The position numbers and the translations under genes are program-made. From Spartobacteria bacterium (GTDB lineage Bacteria > Verrucomicrobiota > Verrucomicrobiia > Chthoniobacterales > UBA10450), in assembly GCA_003134785.1 (NCBI GenBank), contig PLCN01000002.1:124219-188218 (forward strand): a DNA stretch of 64,000 nucleotides, given 5' to 3'. Within the stretch, counting starts at the first letter, position 1; each line of letters starts with the position of its first letter. The notes below the pieces were generated by a model, which saw only the letters and a program-made list of their open reading frames with translations, searched no databases and was not told the DNA's origin. Below, piece by piece: positions 928-55,944 of this stretch.

Positions 928-1881
928 TCAGGCGCTGACCTCATGGCTGGTTCGTTTGCTGAGAGCATCAGCCAGAACCAGCGCAGTTCCGCTGAAGGCT
1001 AAAATATCAACGAAATTGTTCAGCCCACCGTCTATGTCGGAAGGGTTAGCGACTATGATGGGGAAGTAAACAAATACTCCTAGAAGCAGAATCACAATCC
1101 CCAGATATATTGCTGCCAAGCGTACCTTTTTATTCAGGCCAATACACGCGCCGCAAGCAATAAGAGCCGAGCCCGTGAGATAGGCCCAGAAAAGACGCCC
1201 AGGAATCCATGCAGGTGTTATTGTTTCCATAGGAATACCGGGCGCGAGCGTGGGATGCAAAAAATGCTCCACGCCGAAGACTATCGCCGGTATCCCCACG
1301 AAAAAGCGGCAAAGAGTTACCAACCCTGGCGTGCCATCGGAAAGCGTTCTTTTCGACTGTCTTCCGGCCAACGCAAAAGCTCCACCGCTGAAGGCTAGAT
1401 CCCTCAGGCCGATGGTCCAAAACAAACGAGCGCCATGTGTGGCCACTATGTTAGGGATATGCATCAGGACCACGAAAAGTAGAAACATGCATCCCAAAAG
1501 TGTGGCCGCCAGCCGTGCATGTTTCTCCAGGATGGTGCTCAGCACCGCGGCAATAAGCGCAATGCCCACCAGATAGACCCAAAATGTGTGCAGCGGCATC
1601 CAGGACGGAACGATACTGGCAACGAACTTTGTATTGGTAAAATGCTGCGTGGCGAATACTGCCATCGGGATGGCAAAGAACAGCCGACCGAATGGCGAGG
1701 TCTTGTCGAGCCCGTGTTTTTGCGGTAGCTCGTCCTTAATAATCTTTGTTAGCCCGATTACAAAAAGAACGGCGCAGCTAAAATACGGCCAGAACACGTC
1801 CGCCCGGATTGGGAAGACAGCAAATGCTAAAGCAAGACGAGCGTGGTGGAGAAATTGGAAACTGCAATACAGCATATTCAT
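928..1881 (-). CDS. DoxX-like membrane protein with internal duplication
   Basis: 317 residues, strongly hydrophobic, with about eight membrane segments in two similar halves. FGRLFFAIPMAVFATQHF in the first half matches LCRFFVGIPAIVFGVEHF in the second, and VPSWMPLHTFWVYLVGIALI matches TPAWIPGRLFWAYLTGSALI. Each half looks like one DoxX-type four-helix unit, so the protein is a tandem duplication within the gene. Substrate and function are unknown. Another single-unit DoxX-like gene lies at 37788. Confidence 0.65.
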   Translation of the reverse strand: MNMLYCSFQFLHHARLALAFAVFPIRADVFWPYFSCAVLFVIGLTKIIKDELPQKHGLDKTSPFGRLFFAIPMAVFATQHFTNTKFVASIVPSWMPLHTFWVYLVGIALIAAVLSTILEKHARLAATLLGCMFLLFVVLMHIPNIVATHGARLFWTIGLRDLAFSGGAFALAGRQSKRTLSDGTPGLVTLCRFFVGIPAIVFGVEHFLHPTLAPGIPMETITPAWIPGRLFWAYLTGSALIACGACIGLNKKVRLAAIYLGIVILLLGVFVYFPIIVANPSDIDGGLNNFVDILAFSGTALVLADALSKRTSHEVSA

Positions 1882-45611: not shown

Positions 45612-48600
45612 ATGGCGACGCTCACTGGCTTGCTCTCCAAATGGCCGCTCGTTCGGCAGATTCGCGAACGCAAAGACGGAACGGGCCCGGAGTCGATGTC
45701 AGACAAAACTCGCGCGATGCACGCGCGGATCGATGGGGCGAACGTCGCGCGCTCAGTTTGTCCGTACTGCGGCGTCGGCTGCGGCCAGTTAATTTTTCAC
45801 AAGGATGGGAAACTGATTTCGATCGAAGGCGATCCGGAGAGTCCGATCAGCCAGGGGAATCTTTGCCCGAAAGGCGCGGCTTCCTATCAATTGCTCACGC
45901 ACAATCGGCGCGAAACGAAAATGAAATATCGCGCGCCGCGCGCCAAAGAATGGACGGAAATTTCGCTGGATCGAGCGATGGACATGGTGGCGGACCGTGT
46001 CTGGGAATCGCGCAAGCGCACTTTCGTTCACAAGAAAGACGGCGTGACCATCAATCACACGACGGCGATCTGCCATCTCGGCGGCGCGACGCTCGACAAC
46101 GAAGAAAATTATCTCATCCGAAAACTATTCACTCTTGGCCTGGGGATGGTCTGCATATCCAACCAGGCGCGGATATGACATAGCAGCACGGTGCCCGGTC
46201 TGGGCACCTCCTTCGGCCGGGGCGGAGCTACGACTGCCCAACAAGATCTCGCTAACGCCGATTGCATTTTAATCGAAGGCTCGTCCATGGCGGAAGCGCA
46301 CCCGGTCGGTTTCCGCTGGGTCATGAAAGCGAAGGAGCGCGGCGCCACCATCATCCATGTCGATCCACGATTTTCGCGGACCAGCGCATTAGCCGATATC
46401 TGGGTGCCGATGCGCGCCGGCGGCGACATCGCGTTTCTCGGCGGCATTATCAGGCACATTATCGAGAACAACCTTTTCTTCCGCGAGTACGTGGTGCACT
46501 TCACGAATGCGTCCTGCATTCTGCGCGAAGATTTTCGCGATACGGAAGAAGGGGCGACCGGCTTTTTCTCCGGCTGGAACGAAGAGCAACGAGCCTACGA
46601 CAAGGGTAGCTGGGCCTACGACGGCGATGGCGGCCTCAGTTTTCCGGAGCGCGATTTGACCTTGCAACATCCGCGATGCGTTTTCCAAACACTGCGCCGC
46701 CACTTCACCCGTTACACGCCCGAAATGGTGGAGAAGATTTGTGGAATTTCGTCAGTGCTTTTTCAGAAAGTGGCCGACGCGCTCGTCGCGGCGTCGGGTC
46801 CGGACAAGACCGCGGCGATCTGTTATGCGCTCGGCTGGACGCAACATTCAAAGGGCGTTCAGATCATTCGCACGGCTTCGATCCTGCAACTTTTGCTTGG
46901 CAACATTGGCCGGCCTGGTGGCGGTATTCTGGCGTTGCGCGGTCACGCTTCGATCCAAGGCTCGACCGACATTCCGACCCTCTACGATATTTTGCCCGGT
47001 TACCTCTCGATGCCGAAGGGCGACGGGAGCGAGGAAACGTTGCGCGATTACCTTGCGCATCAAACCAAGCCGACCGGTCTCTGGAATAATTATCCTAACT
47101 ACTTCATCAGTTTGCTGAAAGCCTACTACGGCAAGAACGCGACGGCCGAAAACGACTTTGGGTATAGTTGGATCCCGAAGCTGACCGGCAACCATTCCTT
47201 CTTCGAATATCTCTACGACATGGCCGATGGGAAAATGGAGGGCATGTTCATGATGGGCCAGAATCCGGCGGTGGCTGCGGCCAACTCGCGGTTCCAGCGC
47301 ACGTCGCTCTCAAAATTAAAATGGCTCGTCGTGCGCGAGATGGTCGAGATCGAAGCGGCCACGTTTTGGCGCAGCGACGCGCCCGAGATCGAACGTGGCG
47401 AATTGAAGACGGAAGATATCGAGACGGAGGTTTTTCTTTTTCCGGCCGCGGGACACGCCGAGAAGGAGGGCGCCTTCACGCAAACGCAGCGCATGTTGCA
47501 GTGGCGCGAAAAGGCGGTGAATCCGCCGGGCGATGCGCGCTCCGAAGGTTGGTTCATGCATCAGCTCGCTTTGCGTTTGATCGCGAAGGCGAAGCAATCG
47601 AGCGACCCCCTCGATGAACCGTTGCGCGCTCTCGATTGGTGGTACCCGGAAGATGAATACGGTGAACCGCAGATGGAATCTGTGCTGGCCGAGATCAACG
47701 GTTGGTCCACCAATCCACAGCCAGGCGCTGATGGAGTCGTGTTCGGCGGCGTCGATCGCAAAGGCAATCCACATCACGGCCCGCAGGTGGACGGATTTGG
47801 GAAACTGAAGGCTGATGGTTCAACTGCCAGCGGCTGCTGGATTTATTCCGGCGTCCTTGGTCCGGACAAAATCAATAAGGCGAACTCGCGAAATTCGAAA
47901 AATTATCTCGGCCACGGTTGGGGCTTCGTCTGGCCGGCCGATCGCCGCATTATATATAATAGAGCCAGCGCCAAACCGACCGGCGAGCCATGGAGCGAGC
48001 GCAAGAAATTGGTTTGGTGGGACCCGGCGCAAGGCAAATGGGGCGGGATCGACGTTCCTGATTTTGTCCCGGACAAGTCGCCCGATTATCGTCCAACTGG
48101 AAACGAAAGCGGGCTCGCTGGGATTCCCGGCGATGCGCCGTTCATCTTGCACGAGGACGGTCTCGGGTGGTTGCATGTCCCGAAAGGTTTGCAGGATGGG
48201 CCGATGCCCACGCATTACGAGCCGCTCGAGTCACCGGTGCATAATGCGCTTTACTCCCGCGACACGAATCCGGCGGTCAATTGGTTTACCCGCCAGGAGA
48301 ATCGGTTCGCGCCGCCGGGTGATCCGCGATTTCCTTTTGTCCTGACAACCTACCGGCTGACCGAGCACCATACGGCTGGCGGCATGTCTCGCTTCCTCAG
48401 CCATCTGGCCGAATTGCAACCGGAGTTGTTCGCGGAAATGTCTCCCGAGCTCGCCGCCGAACTAAAGATCAAGAACGGCGATTACATTTCGATTGTGAGC
48501 TTGCGCGGAGCAATCGAATCGCGCGCACTCGTTAGCCGCCGCATGCGCCCGATGCATCTCAACGGAAAAACCGTGCATCAAATTGCGATGCCGTTTCATT

Positions 48601-48872
48601 TCGGCACGGCCGGACCAGTGAAGGGTGGTGCGACTAATGATTTGGTTCCGATCTCGGGCGAGCCGAACGTCACGATCATGGAAGCCAAGGCGCTCGCTTG
48701 CAATATCGTCCCGTGCCGATTGCCGCGCGGACCCGCATTCCATGAGTGGTTCAAAAAATATGTGCCGCAAGGCGGCCCACCGAATCTGCATCCGGAACAG
48801 CCGCCGCCAGGCGCATCTCCCGGCCCAGAAGCTGGCGGTCACGGTCAACATGGAAAGACTGACTCACGATGA
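45612..48872 (+). CDS. fdhA: Formate dehydrogenase alpha subunit, selenocysteine-containing (Sec189)
   Basis: 1086 residues read through the UGA at 46176-46178. Context QARI-U-HSSTVPGLGTSFGRG matches the FdnG/FdoG/FdhF active site, where Sec binds molybdenum. The [4Fe-4S] motif is CPYCGVGCG...NLCPKG (Cys50, 53, 57, 85). AEAHPVGFRWVMKAKERG, HYTNASCILR-type HFTNASCILREDF and ALGWTQHSKGVQIIRT follow as in FdnG. There is no twin-arginine signal, so the enzyme probably faces the cytoplasm. It oxidises formate with a molybdopterin-guanine dinucleotide cofactor. A bacterial SECIS hairpin sits just after the UGA. Confidence 0.96.
46190..46208 (+). promoter_or_regulatory. bSECIS hairpin of the fdhA mRNA
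   Basis: GGTGCCC-GGTCT-GGGCACC: a perfect 7-bp stem with loop GGTCT, 18 bases after the UGA. The loop is the same GGUCU that SelB recognises in the E. coli fdhF SECIS. This is direct evidence that the UGA is selenocysteine. Confidence 0.92.
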
Positions 48873-51041: not shown

Positions 51042-52967
51042 TCAGTGCGCGAGCGTGCGTTTATCTCCCACACGCCGCGTCACGCCATCGTGATCGAGTC
51101 GTTCGAGAAACGGCACGATTACGCGACGCGAACTGCCTAGCGCTTGTCGCAAATCACTGACGCTCGCGTAGCCTTTGGCGCGAATGAATTTGACGACCTC
51201 GTCGCGCATCTTCGCGAATTCTTTGCTGCCCAGGAATACGTCGTCCGTGGTCTTAATGACCTCACCGGTATCGCACAAAAACCGCAGCGCTTGCTCGGAG
51301 GTCGCATCCGGCGCGAATTCCTTGCGTGACGGCGGATCAAATGGCTTCGCCGCAAGTGCTGCACGAATTCGCGTACACACCGCCTGAAGGGAACTTGGCA
51401 AGGTAGGCTGGTGCTTCGCACGCTGGATGGTTTCACCGGCGCGCACGAAGCCGTTCTTGCACAATTCGGAGATGAGCGCGTCGAAGACTTCCGGCAGCGG
51501 CATTTCGCCGCCCACCGCACTGCGCAGCCGCGCAAGCTCGAGACCGATCCGATTCGGATGCGTCCTGTGCTCATCCTCAATCTTCGAAATGGCGTTTTCT
51601 CGGAAATCCGCCCACCACTTCGCGTCGAAGATAAGGTCACCGAGTTCAACGGCTATTCCGCTTTTGCTTAATTCGGAGATCGCGGCGGAGATTTCGGCGC
51701 GGCTGAAACGCGATTTCACCAGCAGCGCCGGCCGCCGCGTGGCATGGCCGCGGGCCAGCTGGGTGCGGACAAAGACGGACACGTTTTCGGAGGAACCCAT
51801 GCGTTGGTCCAGAAATTCTCGCTGCGCTCCGCTCCTGAAATTCTTCACGCTCGCATCCGGATCGAGCACGACTCCACCTGCCAGCGTGCTTTGCCCGGAC
51901 ACGTCGCGGACAACGAACTGGTCGCCGGCGAACATGAAAACCGGTGAGTCGAAACGTAATTGCACGATGCCCGTTTCGCGCGCACGCAGATCTTCTCCGC
52001 TTTGGAAAAAAATGCGCGCCAACGAATTTCTGCTGCCGTGATGCACGCGCACGGCCGAGCCATGTTTGAGCGCCCGCGTCGTTATGGGTAACCGCGAGGA
52101 ACGCGTCAGCGCGACGTCGATGACGTCGCTTGCATTGCCGAAATCTGCGAGCGTGATAACGTCGCCGCGCCAAACACCGCGTTGGCCTTTGTCTCGCGCA
52201 ATTGCCACGTCCGCGAGGTTGAGCGCGGTGCGCACGCCGGGACCGATCTCTTCCAGTTCATGGTTGTGACTTTGGATTGCGCGGATGCGCGCCGGAATGT
52301 TGGTCGGTTGAATGACAACAGCGTCGCCCCGGCGAAATGTTCCTCCGGTCAGCGTGCCGGTCACGACAGTGCCGATGCCGCGCAGAGTGAAGGCGCGATC
52401 AACGGCGAGGCGGCTCTTGCCGATGTCGGCCTGCGGCGCCATCGATCCAAACTCACGAGCGAGTTGCGCTTTCAATTCTTCAATCCCACGGCCTGTTGGA
52501 ACGGAAGTCCGCACTATCGGGGCGTCGTGAAAGGCGGTGCCAGCAAGCTTAGCTCGCACTTCGCTCTCAGCCGCGTCTTCTGATTTCGCCAGATCGATCT
52601 TCGTCAACGCGACGACTGCGCGTCTCACCCCGAGATAGGTGAGGATTTGCAAATGCTCCTCGGTCTGCGGCATCCAGCCGTCATCGGCGGCGACGACGAG
52701 GAGCGCGAGGTCAATCGAGCCAACGCCCGCGACCATATTCTTGACGAAATCTTCGTGTCCGGGGACATCCACGATTCCGATCGATAGCGTTGATGGTTGA
52801 TGGTTGATGGTTGATGGAAGCAGGAGGTGAGAGAAGCCAAGCTCGATCGTGATACCGCGCGCTTTTTCTTCCGGCAGCCGATCGGGATCCACGCCGGTGA
52901 GCGCTTTGACGAGCGCGCTCTTCCCATGATCGACATGTCCGGCGGTTGCGAGGATGAAATGCTTCAA
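51042..52967 (-). CDS. selB: Selenocysteine-specific elongation factor SelB
   Basis: 641 residues. G1 [17 protein letters not shown]3 [16 protein letters not shown]4 TKIDL, then EF-Tu-like domains 2 and 3, and C-terminal winged helices ([44 protein letters not shown]) that bind the SECIS loop. It carries Sec-tRNA to the ribosome at UGA. A four-fold 7-bp repeat inserts [13 protein letters not shown] between [11 protein letters not shown] and IGIVDVPG. It overlaps selA by four bases (ATGA). Confidence 0.95.
52789..52816 (-). repeat. Heptameric tandem repeat inside selB
   Basis: Four perfect units of GTTGATG on the plus strand (CATCAAC on the coding strand). They encode the INHQPST stretch in the loop before switch II of the SelB GTPase domain. 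Confidence 0.9.
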
Positions 52968-54331
52968 AGCGATTGAGCGGCCGAACGCAGAGCAGTCACG
53001 AGTTCTTCATCCTGTCGTGAGAGAATTGTTCGCAGATCGAGCTTGAATTTCCCGGCGGCGACGTAGCCGATAACGGGCGGTGTTCCGCGACGCAGCCGAG
53101 CGGCGAACGCGCTCAAGTGATCGCCAGAAAAATCCAGCGTGACCGATTGGATCGTTGAGCGAGGAAGTGTGCCCCCGCCGAGCTGCCCGTCCCCGTGGCC
53201 AATTTGCGGCCGCAGCGGCAACTCGTGCAGCCGCGTGATTATCTTTTCGGCGCGTTGGCGCAATTGGTCGTTCGAAAGTTGCATCATGGCGAGCGCGGGA
53301 ACGGCGCTCGTTTCGCCGGAAAGATACAGATCAATCGTGGTCTGCAGAGCAGCGAGAATGATTTTGTCGCAACGGAGCGCGCGGAAGAATGGCTCGCGTT
53401 TCAACGCAGCAACGTGGCGCGCTTTCCCGGCGATGATACCCGCCTGCGGCCCACCTAATAGTTTGTCGCCGCTGAAACAAACGAGATCGACGCCACGTTT
53501 GAGAGTTTCCGAGGGAGTTGGTTCGTGCTCGATAGCCGCCGCTTTTTCCGTGGCGATAATGGCGCCGCTGCCAAGATCTTCCACGAGTGGAATGCGCTTC
53601 TTGCGTACCAGCGTTACCAGCAATTCCGTGCTCGGCGATGCGACGAAGCCGCCCATGAAGAAATTGCTGCGATGCACTTTCAGAATCATGGCGGTGTTGG
53701 GGGAGATCGCGCGCGCGTAGTCATCGATCGTGGTCTTGTTCGTCGTCCCGACCTCGCGCAGCGTCGCGCCGCTGGCTTCCAGAATATCTGGAATACGGAA
53801 ACCGCCGCCGATTTGAATCAGCTCGCCGCGCGAGATGATGACTTCCTTTTTTTTCCCGGTGAAATGCCGCAGAATGAGGACAAGCGCCGCGGCACAATTG
53901 TTGACGACCGTCGCTGCTTCGGCGCCGCAGAGGAGCGCAAGATTGTGTTCCAAGTAATTCGCGCGATGACCGCGCTCCCCGCTGTTCAAGTCGTATTCGA
54001 GATTGCAATAACCTTGGGCGATCTCGCTGAGCGACTCGAGGACGCGCGGACCGAGCGGCGCCCGACCCAGGTTCGTGTGGATGATAATTCCCGTGCCGTT
54101 GATCACGGGCTGGATTTTTGAAAGCCGCAAATCGTCGACTGACGCACGCACTCGAGTGATGACAGCGGCCAGATCCAGCACATTTTTTCCGGCGCGCATC
54201 GCTGACAGTTCGCGGCGCACGAGCGCAACGATCACCGGACGCGGCAAATAATCGCAGCGACCGAGTTCGATCACCACTTTTTCGACGGCTGGAATGTCCC
54301 GCAGTGAACGCGCCGTTACTCTCTCAGGCAT
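52964..54331 (-). CDS. selA: L-seryl-tRNA(Sec) selenium transferase SelA
   Basis: 455 residues from MPERVTARSLRDIPAVEKVV at 54331. Motifs: NGTGIIIHTNLGRAPL, YCNLEYDLNSGERGHR, NNCAAALVL, KVHRSNFFMGGF, and the PLP lysine in FSGDKLLGGPQAGI. It converts Ser-tRNA(Sec) to Sec-tRNA(Sec) using selenophosphate. The start overlaps the selD end by 16 bases, which argues for translational coupling; a start at 54379 is also in frame but would overlap more. Confidence 0.95.
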   Translation of the reverse strand: MPERVTARSLRDIPAVEKVVIELGRCDYLPRPVIVALVRRELSAMRAGKNVLDLAAVITRVRASVDDLRLSKIQPVINGTGIIIHTNLGRAPLGPRVLESLSEIAQGYCNLEYDLNSGERGHRANYLEHNLALLCGAEAATVVNNCAAALVLILRHFTGKKKEVIISRGELIQIGGGFRIPDILEASGATLREVGTTNKTTIDDYARAISPNTAMILKVHRSNFFMGGFVASPSTELLVTLVRKKRIPLVEDLGSGAIIATEKAAAIEHEPTPSETLKRGVDLVCFSGDKLLGGPQAGIIAGKARHVAALKREPFFRALRCDKIILAALQTTIDLYLSGETSAVPALAMMQLSNDQLRQRAEKIITRLHELPLRPQIGHGDGQLGGGTLPRSTIQSVTLDFSGDHLSAFAARLRRGTPPVIGYVAAGKFKLDLRTILSRQDEELVTALRSAAQSL

Positions 54332-55368
54332 ATTTTCGGCATGTCCGTGCGGATGATTTTCCCGATGACGGCGGCGCACACGGTGCGGTGTTTTTTCAGC
54401 ACGCTTTGCACGGCGCCCCAGCGTTTTGGCGAAACAGAGAGCAACAGACCGCCGCTGGTTTGTGCGTCGGCCAGGAGGAGGCGGATCGGTTCGGCCGTGT
54501 CATTCCATTCGACGATCGCGTTGGCCGTTTCGAGATTCTGCCGCGTGCCGCCCGGCACGCAGTCATCGTTAATGAGGGAGAAAATCTCCGGGCTAATGGC
54601 GGGGACCGCGCCGGTTGAAATCTCCGCGCCGACTCCGCTCGCACGGCACATGGCGGCGAGATGGCCAAGCAATCCGAAGCCGGTGACATCGACCGCGGCA
54701 CGCAGAAGTCCGCGTTCGGCGAGGACGGCGCCGACCGTGTTCAAGCAACGCATCAAGACGATCGATTTTTTCGCCAAGGCGGCCGAAGTCAGCCCGCGCT
54801 TGATCCCGGTGGTGGCGATCCCAGTCCCGAGCGGTTTTGTTAAAACGAGCAGATCGCCGGAACGTGCGTTCGCATTCGTCAACATGCGCTGGGGCGACAC
54901 GATGCCGGTGACTGCGAGACCGTAGATCGGCTCCGGATTTCGAATCGTGTGCCCCCCGATGATCACACAACCTGCCTCTTTTGCTTTCGCGGCTCCCCCG
55001 CGCAGAATCGCGGCGATCACGTTCGGCGGCACAAGGTCGGTGGGAATGCCCATGATATTCAAGGCGATGAGTGGACGGCCACCCATCGCGTAGACATCTG
55101 ACAACGCGTTGGCCGCCGCGATCTGGCCGTAGGAAAATGGGTCGTCCACGATCGGTGTGAAAAAATCCACCGTCTGCACGAGGGCGCGATCGCGTGTGAG
55201 GCGATACACGCCGGCATCGTCCAGGCTTGCGGACCCGACGAGTACGTTCGGATCATCCATTTTTGGGAGCTGCCGCAAAACTTGCGACAGGGCCTGTTGG
55301 CTCAATTTCGACGCTCACCCCGCGCAGGACGAAAGCGACGTAAGCTTAAGAATTTGCTCGCGCGACAT
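54316..55368 (-). CDS. selD: Selenophosphate synthetase SelD, itself selenocysteine-containing (Sec18)
   Basis: 350 residues from ATG 55368, which has AAAGGAGGTGATTTGC upstream. The N-terminus reads SREQILKLTSLSSCAG-U-ASKLSQQ; the UGA is at 55315-55317 and aligns with the catalytic Cys17 of E. coli SelD. Reading on from there gives DDPNVLVGSASLDDAGVYRL, GGHTIRNPEPIYGLAVTG and DVTGFGLLGHL. It makes selenophosphate from selenide and ATP. A start at the internal ATG (55260) or TTG (55305) would drop the active-site residue. Sec-containing SelD is known in other bacteria and archaea. Confidence 0.95.
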
Positions 55369-55394
55369 GCAAATCACCTCCTTTCACAAATTGG

Positions 55395-55466
55395 GAATGC
55401 GGAATTCGGAATGCGGAATGGTCTGGAGGCTTTAATTCCATATTCCGCACTCCGAATTCCGCATTC
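55395..55466. repeat. 25-bp near-perfect inverted repeat between selD and tRNA-Sec
   Basis: GAATGCGGAATTCGGAATGC.. (55395-55419) faces its reverse complement (55442-55466) with one mismatch and a 22-base loop. Each arm is built from 7-bp units (GAATGCG/GAATTCG). It could fold in the transcript just 3' of the tRNA and help separate tRNA from selD mRNA. Confidence 0.88.
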
Positions 55467-55470
55467 GAAT

Positions 55471-55570
55471 TGGCGGAGAGGATAGGAATCGAACCTACCC
55501 CGATCCGGCAGTTGCCGGACCGACAACGGTTTTGAAGACCGCGAGGGCCACCAGGCACCCTTCACTCTCC
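55471..55570 (-). tRNA. selC: tRNA-Sec (UCA)
   Basis: 100 nt including an encoded GCCA end. It starts GGAGAGTGAAGGGTGCC, has anticodon TCA in GGTCTTCAAAACC, a long variable arm (GTCGGTCCGGCAACTGCCGGA), T arm GGTAGGTTCGATTCCTATC, and the extended acceptor stem expected for tRNA-Sec. It lies between the SelW-like gene and selD on the same strand. Confidence 0.96.
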
Positions 55571-55581
55571 GGGAGAGGGAA

Positions 55582-55616
55582 AACGTCCAACGCTCAACGT
55601 CCAACGTCCAACGTCC
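55582..55616 (-). repeat. Heptameric tandem repeat upstream of tRNA-Sec
   Basis: AACGTCC AACGCTC AACGTCC AACGTCC AACGTCC on the plus strand: five 7-bp units between the small selenoprotein gene and tRNA-Sec. Confidence 0.88.
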
Positions 55617-55638
55617 AAATAAAGAAGAAGCGAAAACG

Positions 55639-55878
55639 CTAGTGAGATTTGTGCGCGCTAATCTGTTGCGCGATCGCGTCAAAGTCCGGCCACTCGCCGG
55701 TCTTGAGTTTGGAATGGATAAGTTCACCGTTGACGCGAATTTCAAAAGCGCCGCCGCTGGAGGGGATCAGTTGCAGCGATTTGATCTCCGCGACGTCGCG
55801 AATTTTGGCCGCCAAACTGGCGGCTCTGGGTTCGTAGTTTCAAGCCGTGCAATATTCGATCGTTACTTCCGGTTTCAC
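55639..55878 (-). CDS. Small Rdx/SelW-like selenoprotein (Sec13)
   Basis: 79 residues from a GTG at 55878 with AAAGGAGG five bases upstream. It reads KPEVTIEYCTA-U-NYEPRAASLAAKI...; C10-T-A-U13 is the CxxU redox motif of the SelW/SelT/SelH (Rdx) family. IQLIPSSGGAFEIRVNGELIHSK-type (here LQLIPSSGGAFEIRVNGELIHSK) and GEWPDFDAIAQQI complete the fold. The UGA is at 55840-55842. The function is thiol redox, partner unknown. It is easily missed because the UGA cuts the frame. Confidence 0.94.
55808..55824 (-). promoter_or_regulatory. SECIS-like hairpin of the SelW-like gene
   Basis: On the coding strand GCCGCCA-GTT-TGGCGGC, a perfect 7-bp stem about 15 bases after the UGA. The loop is GUU rather than GGUCU, so recognition may be looser than in fdhA. 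Confidence 0.75.
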
Positions 55879-55944
55879 GCGCGCCTCCTTTCTCTGGCTG
55901 ACGCTATTCGTCCGCGGCCGCGCTGTCGAGGCTGAGCCTCTTAC

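Follow-up and report, generated by a model that had tools for sequence, protein, structure and literature searches.

A probable selenocysteine-containing Rdx (SelW-like) protein encoded directly upstream of tRNA-Sec in a Verrucomicrobiota selenocysteine gene cluster

We analysed a 64,000-nucleotide stretch (the window) of contig PLCN01000002.1 from a Spartobacteria bacterium of the phylum Verrucomicrobiota. On its minus strand lies the gene order rdx - tRNA-Sec - selD - selA - selB, with SelA, SelB, SelD and tRNA-Sec all encoded beside rdx (Table 1). A sequence-only reading had proposed a hidden 79-residue Rdx/SelW-like selenoprotein at this site, next to tRNA-Sec. Its coordinates and length are correct, the strand, which it did not give, is minus, and the tRNA-Sec gene follows on that strand after 68 nt. 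The rdx frame runs from a GTG at 55878-55876 to a TAG at 55641-55639. The predicted ribosome-binding site is present, and the predicted active-site motif CTAU is found as described, with Cys10 and the UGA as codon 13. The description of the gene as hidden is fair, since the UGA codon cuts its reading frame in two and makes it easy to overlook; the longer spurious frames said to cover it are also there, on the plus strand at 55642-55935 and 55649-55837.

Table 1. Features of the rdx locus and its surroundings (window positions)
Feature	Position	Strand	Remarks
rdx / SelW-like selenoprotein gene (probable)	55639..55878	-	79 codons + TAG, GTG start; PF10262, TIGR02174
In-frame UGA, putative selenocysteine 13 (C-T-A-U)	55840..55842	-	56 TGA / 11 TGC related loci
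Ribosome-binding site AAAGGAGG	55884..55891	-	5 nt spacer to GTG
Bacterial SECIS-type hairpin	55808..55824	-	7-bp stem, loop GUU, 15 nt after UGA
tRNA-Sec (anticodon UCA)	55471..55570	-	ARAGORN; Rfam RF01852, 63.2 bits
selD (ATG at 55368)	54316..55368	-	Selenoprotein, UGA 55317-55315 (CAG-U)
selA, selenocysteine synthase	52964..54379 (ORF as listed)	-	TIGR00474, 488 bits
selB, Sec-specific elongation factor	51042..52967	-	TIGR00475, 329.7 bits
Formate dehydrogenase alpha subunit	45696..48872	+	UGA 46176-46178; SECIS-like hairpin; start codon tentative

The neighbouring genes have features of their own. The selD UGA is followed, starting 24 nt past it, by a 9-bp stem with a GUU loop, and an ordinary ORF caller misplaces the selD start at 55305, which truncates the gene. 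The true start of selA is probably the ATG at 54331, and the C-terminal winged helices of selB are matched by Pfam SelB-wing_2 and SelB-wing_3. Past selB, on the opposite strand, lies the gene for a formate dehydrogenase alpha subunit. Its UGA stands in the context RI-U-HSSTVPG, with the hairpin GGUGCCC-GGUCU-GGGCACC (7-bp stem) 11 nt downstream, and for an ordinary ORF caller the gene begins only at 46191. This gene terminates in TGA, and TGA is therefore a normal stop codon in this genome.

Read through the UGA, the rdx product matches Pfam Rdx (PF10262) with 74.4 bits over residues 4-74 (cut-off 22.6) and NCBIfam TIGR02174 (CXXU_selWTH) with 65.8 bits (cut-off 34.2), which upholds the proposed family identity. 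An absence of Rdx similarity downstream of the UGA would have spoken against the proposal; on their own, the 66 residues that follow the UGA score 48.6 bits against Rdx, and this objection therefore falls away. The gene is the one Rdx gene found in this genome. In an alignment of 42 proteins, Cys10, residue 13, Gly43 and Phe45 are invariant, and the AlphaFold2 model built from the 42 aligned sequences has a mean pLDDT of 92.1. Its best PDB match is the SelW-related 2fa8 (TM 0.85), and the top 23 matches are without exception SelW-related proteins, MIEN1 or mouse SelW. Relatives of solved structure include 2fa8, 2obk, 3dex and mouse SelW 2npb. The product is thus predicted to adopt a SelW-type thioredoxin-like fold, in which the CxxU motif C10-T-A-U13 would sit between strand E4-10 and helix H16-29.

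Codon 13 is TGA in 56 of 67 related loci and TGC (Cys) in the other 11, and is never Trp; some of these loci are one record reached through two collections. Their hosts belong to Verrucomicrobiota, Poribacteria, Gemmatimonadota, Acidobacteriota, Deltaproteobacteria and other lineages, and the closest relatives with a name are metagenome bins of Spartobacteria and Verrucomicrobia. The TGC loci, mostly from Rhizobiales, encode Cys-type proteins whose Cys aligns at residue 13, where the sequence-only reading had suggested that Cys homologs be sought. In an even sample of the phylum Verrucomicrobiota, 35 of 289 genomes carry Rdx, 29 of them without a stop and six, this genome included, with one in-frame TGA. 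We retrieved five loci from the group of 29 without a stop; a pattern search recovered four of these, and all four have CxxC. Sec and Cys forms therefore coexist in Verrucomicrobiota. Within this sample, Cys-type and Sec-type Rdx occur one per genome and by sequence resemble two separate subfamilies.

The perfect 7-bp hairpin anticipated 15 nt past the UGA is also real: it reads GCCGCCA-GUU-UGGCGGC, with a 3-nt loop and a stem free of mismatches. A published bSECIS model (PMC13188914) calls for a loop of 3-9 nt that has a G within its first two positions, a stem of 4-16 bp, a UGA-loop distance of 16-37 nt and an MFE of at most -7.5 kcal/mol. The rdx hairpin falls within each of these ranges, with its GUU loop, a UGA-loop distance of 22 nt and an MFE of about -15 kcal/mol. 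Among the 1913 TGA triplets on both strands of the window, only eight are followed by a comparable Watson-Crick hairpin whose first two loop positions include a G, and two by one with the exact rdx geometry. Folding of the single sequence gives z values of -1.3 to -1.7, which are not significant by themselves. Synonymous shuffles of single sequences reach a mean of about 4.9 pairs, as the amino-acid sequence itself gives part of the pairing, and equal the observed pairing about 0.06-0.07 of the time; the pairing count alone is therefore moderate evidence. Given the modest z values and the roughly 7% of shuffles, the case for the hairpin has to be made by comparing sequences across species, and these are not independent of one another.

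In nearly all Sec loci the hairpin occupies the corresponding position. Of 50 distinct Sec sequences, 33 form all seven pairs and 47 form six or more, whereas none of the 11 Cys homologs has at least six of seven pairs at the hairpin position. Four Acidobacteria sequences have a C-G pair swapped for G-C with pairing retained, and in L069, a distant relative, a 7-bp stem persists with a different sequence; three Poribacteria loci (L008, L009, L012) have only five of the seven pairs. All 54 loci with Ser at the codon that puts G-U in the loop use AGT, and the other two loci have AGG. In long ORFs of these loci AGT accounts for just 8.9% of Ser codons, and in the window for 6.1%. We regard this codon bias as a stronger sign of a SECIS element than the pairing count, and claim no formal probability for it because the sequences are related. 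Taken at the sequence level, these data support a bacterial SECIS-type element after the rdx UGA that is conserved across phyla.

The genomic setting recurs in relatives, where tRNA-Sec lies immediately downstream of rdx on the same strand. The entire rdx - tRNA-Sec - selD - selA - selB cluster is syntenic in L002 and L006, and the order of rdx and the Sec-machinery genes is conserved in the host family. Rdx is present in 21 of 56 related genomes, 20 of which have a selB match above the cut-off; selB was matched in only four of the 35 genomes that lack Rdx (Fisher p 2.5e-10 for co-occurrence). In G008, the sole Rdx genome without a selB match, rdx lies about 0.5 kb from a contig end.

Several other explanations of the locus deserve weighing. 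If the UGA were a true stop, the locus would be a pseudogene of a Cys-type Rdx gene, and a standard gene caller does find just a 12-codon frame and then a stop. However, the TGA is shared by 56 loci from several phyla, in which the frame continues intact beyond it, the ribosome-binding site of that frame is kept in close relatives, and the protein after the UGA is conserved: changes relative to the nearest relative, L002, number 10, 4 and 17 at codon positions 1, 2 and 3 and so fall mainly at the third. Decay of this kind is therefore extremely improbable. An open frame does not by itself say which residue is inserted, and the UGA might be read as another amino acid (e.g. Trp) or be passed by low-level readthrough. 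The chance of this is just as slight, given that tRNA-Sec, selA, selB and selD adjoin rdx, that homologs have Cys at the aligned residue, that TGA serves as a normal stop, as in the formate dehydrogenase gene, and that the UGA is followed by a SECIS-type hairpin with a conserved G-U loop. The plus-strand ORFs of 97 and 62 aa noted above offer longer uninterrupted frames on the same DNA. Neither has a Pfam match and the conservation pattern tracks the minus-strand frame, and we reject them as the real gene, with a likelihood close to nil.

We consider it very probable that rdx encodes a Sec-containing member of the Rdx (SelW-like) family, in which UGA codon 13 is decoded by SelB and tRNA-Sec through the adjacent hairpin. 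Following established selenoprotein biology, SelB with Sec-tRNA would read the codon on meeting the hairpin and so insert Sec at residue 13, and rdx may be co-transcribed with the cluster. The 79-residue thioredoxin-fold product would most likely act as a thiol/selenol oxidoreductase, its reduced Cys10/Sec13 pair alternating with a selenenylsulfide in a thiol-redox cycle; family and fold alone suggest this activity. Since the Sec-type rdx is, across one Verrucomicrobiota family, the first gene of the cluster, directly before tRNA-Sec, one could also imagine that decoding of its UGA is a selenium-dependent regulator of the Sec cluster, for instance if ribosome stalling or termination there altered tRNA-Sec and selD expression. 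We think such a role very unlikely.

A Sec-containing Rdx protein places this gene in an already well-known bacterial selenoprotein family, one of the commonest known. In marine microbes, few selenoproteins are as widespread as the SelW-like ones, of which GOS samples yielded 427 Sec forms (PMC2398784), and 10 bacterial SelW-like selenoproteins were catalogued in genomes in 2006 (PMC1794560). The omission from annotation likewise has a precedent, as the SelW genes of Epsilonproteobacteria were wholly overlooked in genome annotation (PMC4607533). With the bacterial SelW-like family the rdx product shares the CxxU motif in the first beta-alpha turn, a length of about 80 residues, the thioredoxin-like fold and the SECIS hairpin after the UGA; it differs only in host lineage and in its placement directly upstream of tRNA-Sec in a Sec-machinery cluster. 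Against the epsilonproteobacterial SelW model (NF041051, SelTWH_Campy) it scores 79.7 bits, under the equivalog cut-off of 88 bits, and we therefore do not assign it to that subfamily. The Cys-type Rdx proteins 2fa8 (Agrobacterium), 2obk (Pseudomonas) and 3dex (Streptomyces) have the same fold (TM about 0.8-0.87), but carry CxxC in place of CxxU, with Cys instead of Sec, and the Cys-type Rdx genes tested have no SECIS-type hairpin at the corresponding position. The recent papers on prokaryotic selenoproteins that we searched do not mention Verrucomicrobiota; we claim no priority for the lineage. Our analysis adds to soil Verrucomicrobiota a selenoprotein gene with good support that plain ORF calling passes over, and shows that in these bacteria the Rdx family member is syntenic with tRNA-Sec and selDAB. 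This should be of use in annotating genomes and in surveying selenium use, and leaves general principles unchanged.

Additionally, the surroundings of tRNA-Sec are repetitive. In the window, the gene is flanked at 55383-55470 and 55580-55640 by short repeats, both direct and inverted (GGAATGCGGAATTCGG; AACGTCCAACGCTCAACG). A related locus, L061, carries a tandem pair of tRNA-Sec genes downstream of rdx (976-1065 and 1241-1330, minus strand), 265 bp apart and each with an Rfam score of 69.1 bits; the pair may have arisen by genuine duplication or through an error of assembly. Repeats similar to those of the window surround tRNA-Sec in L061 as well.
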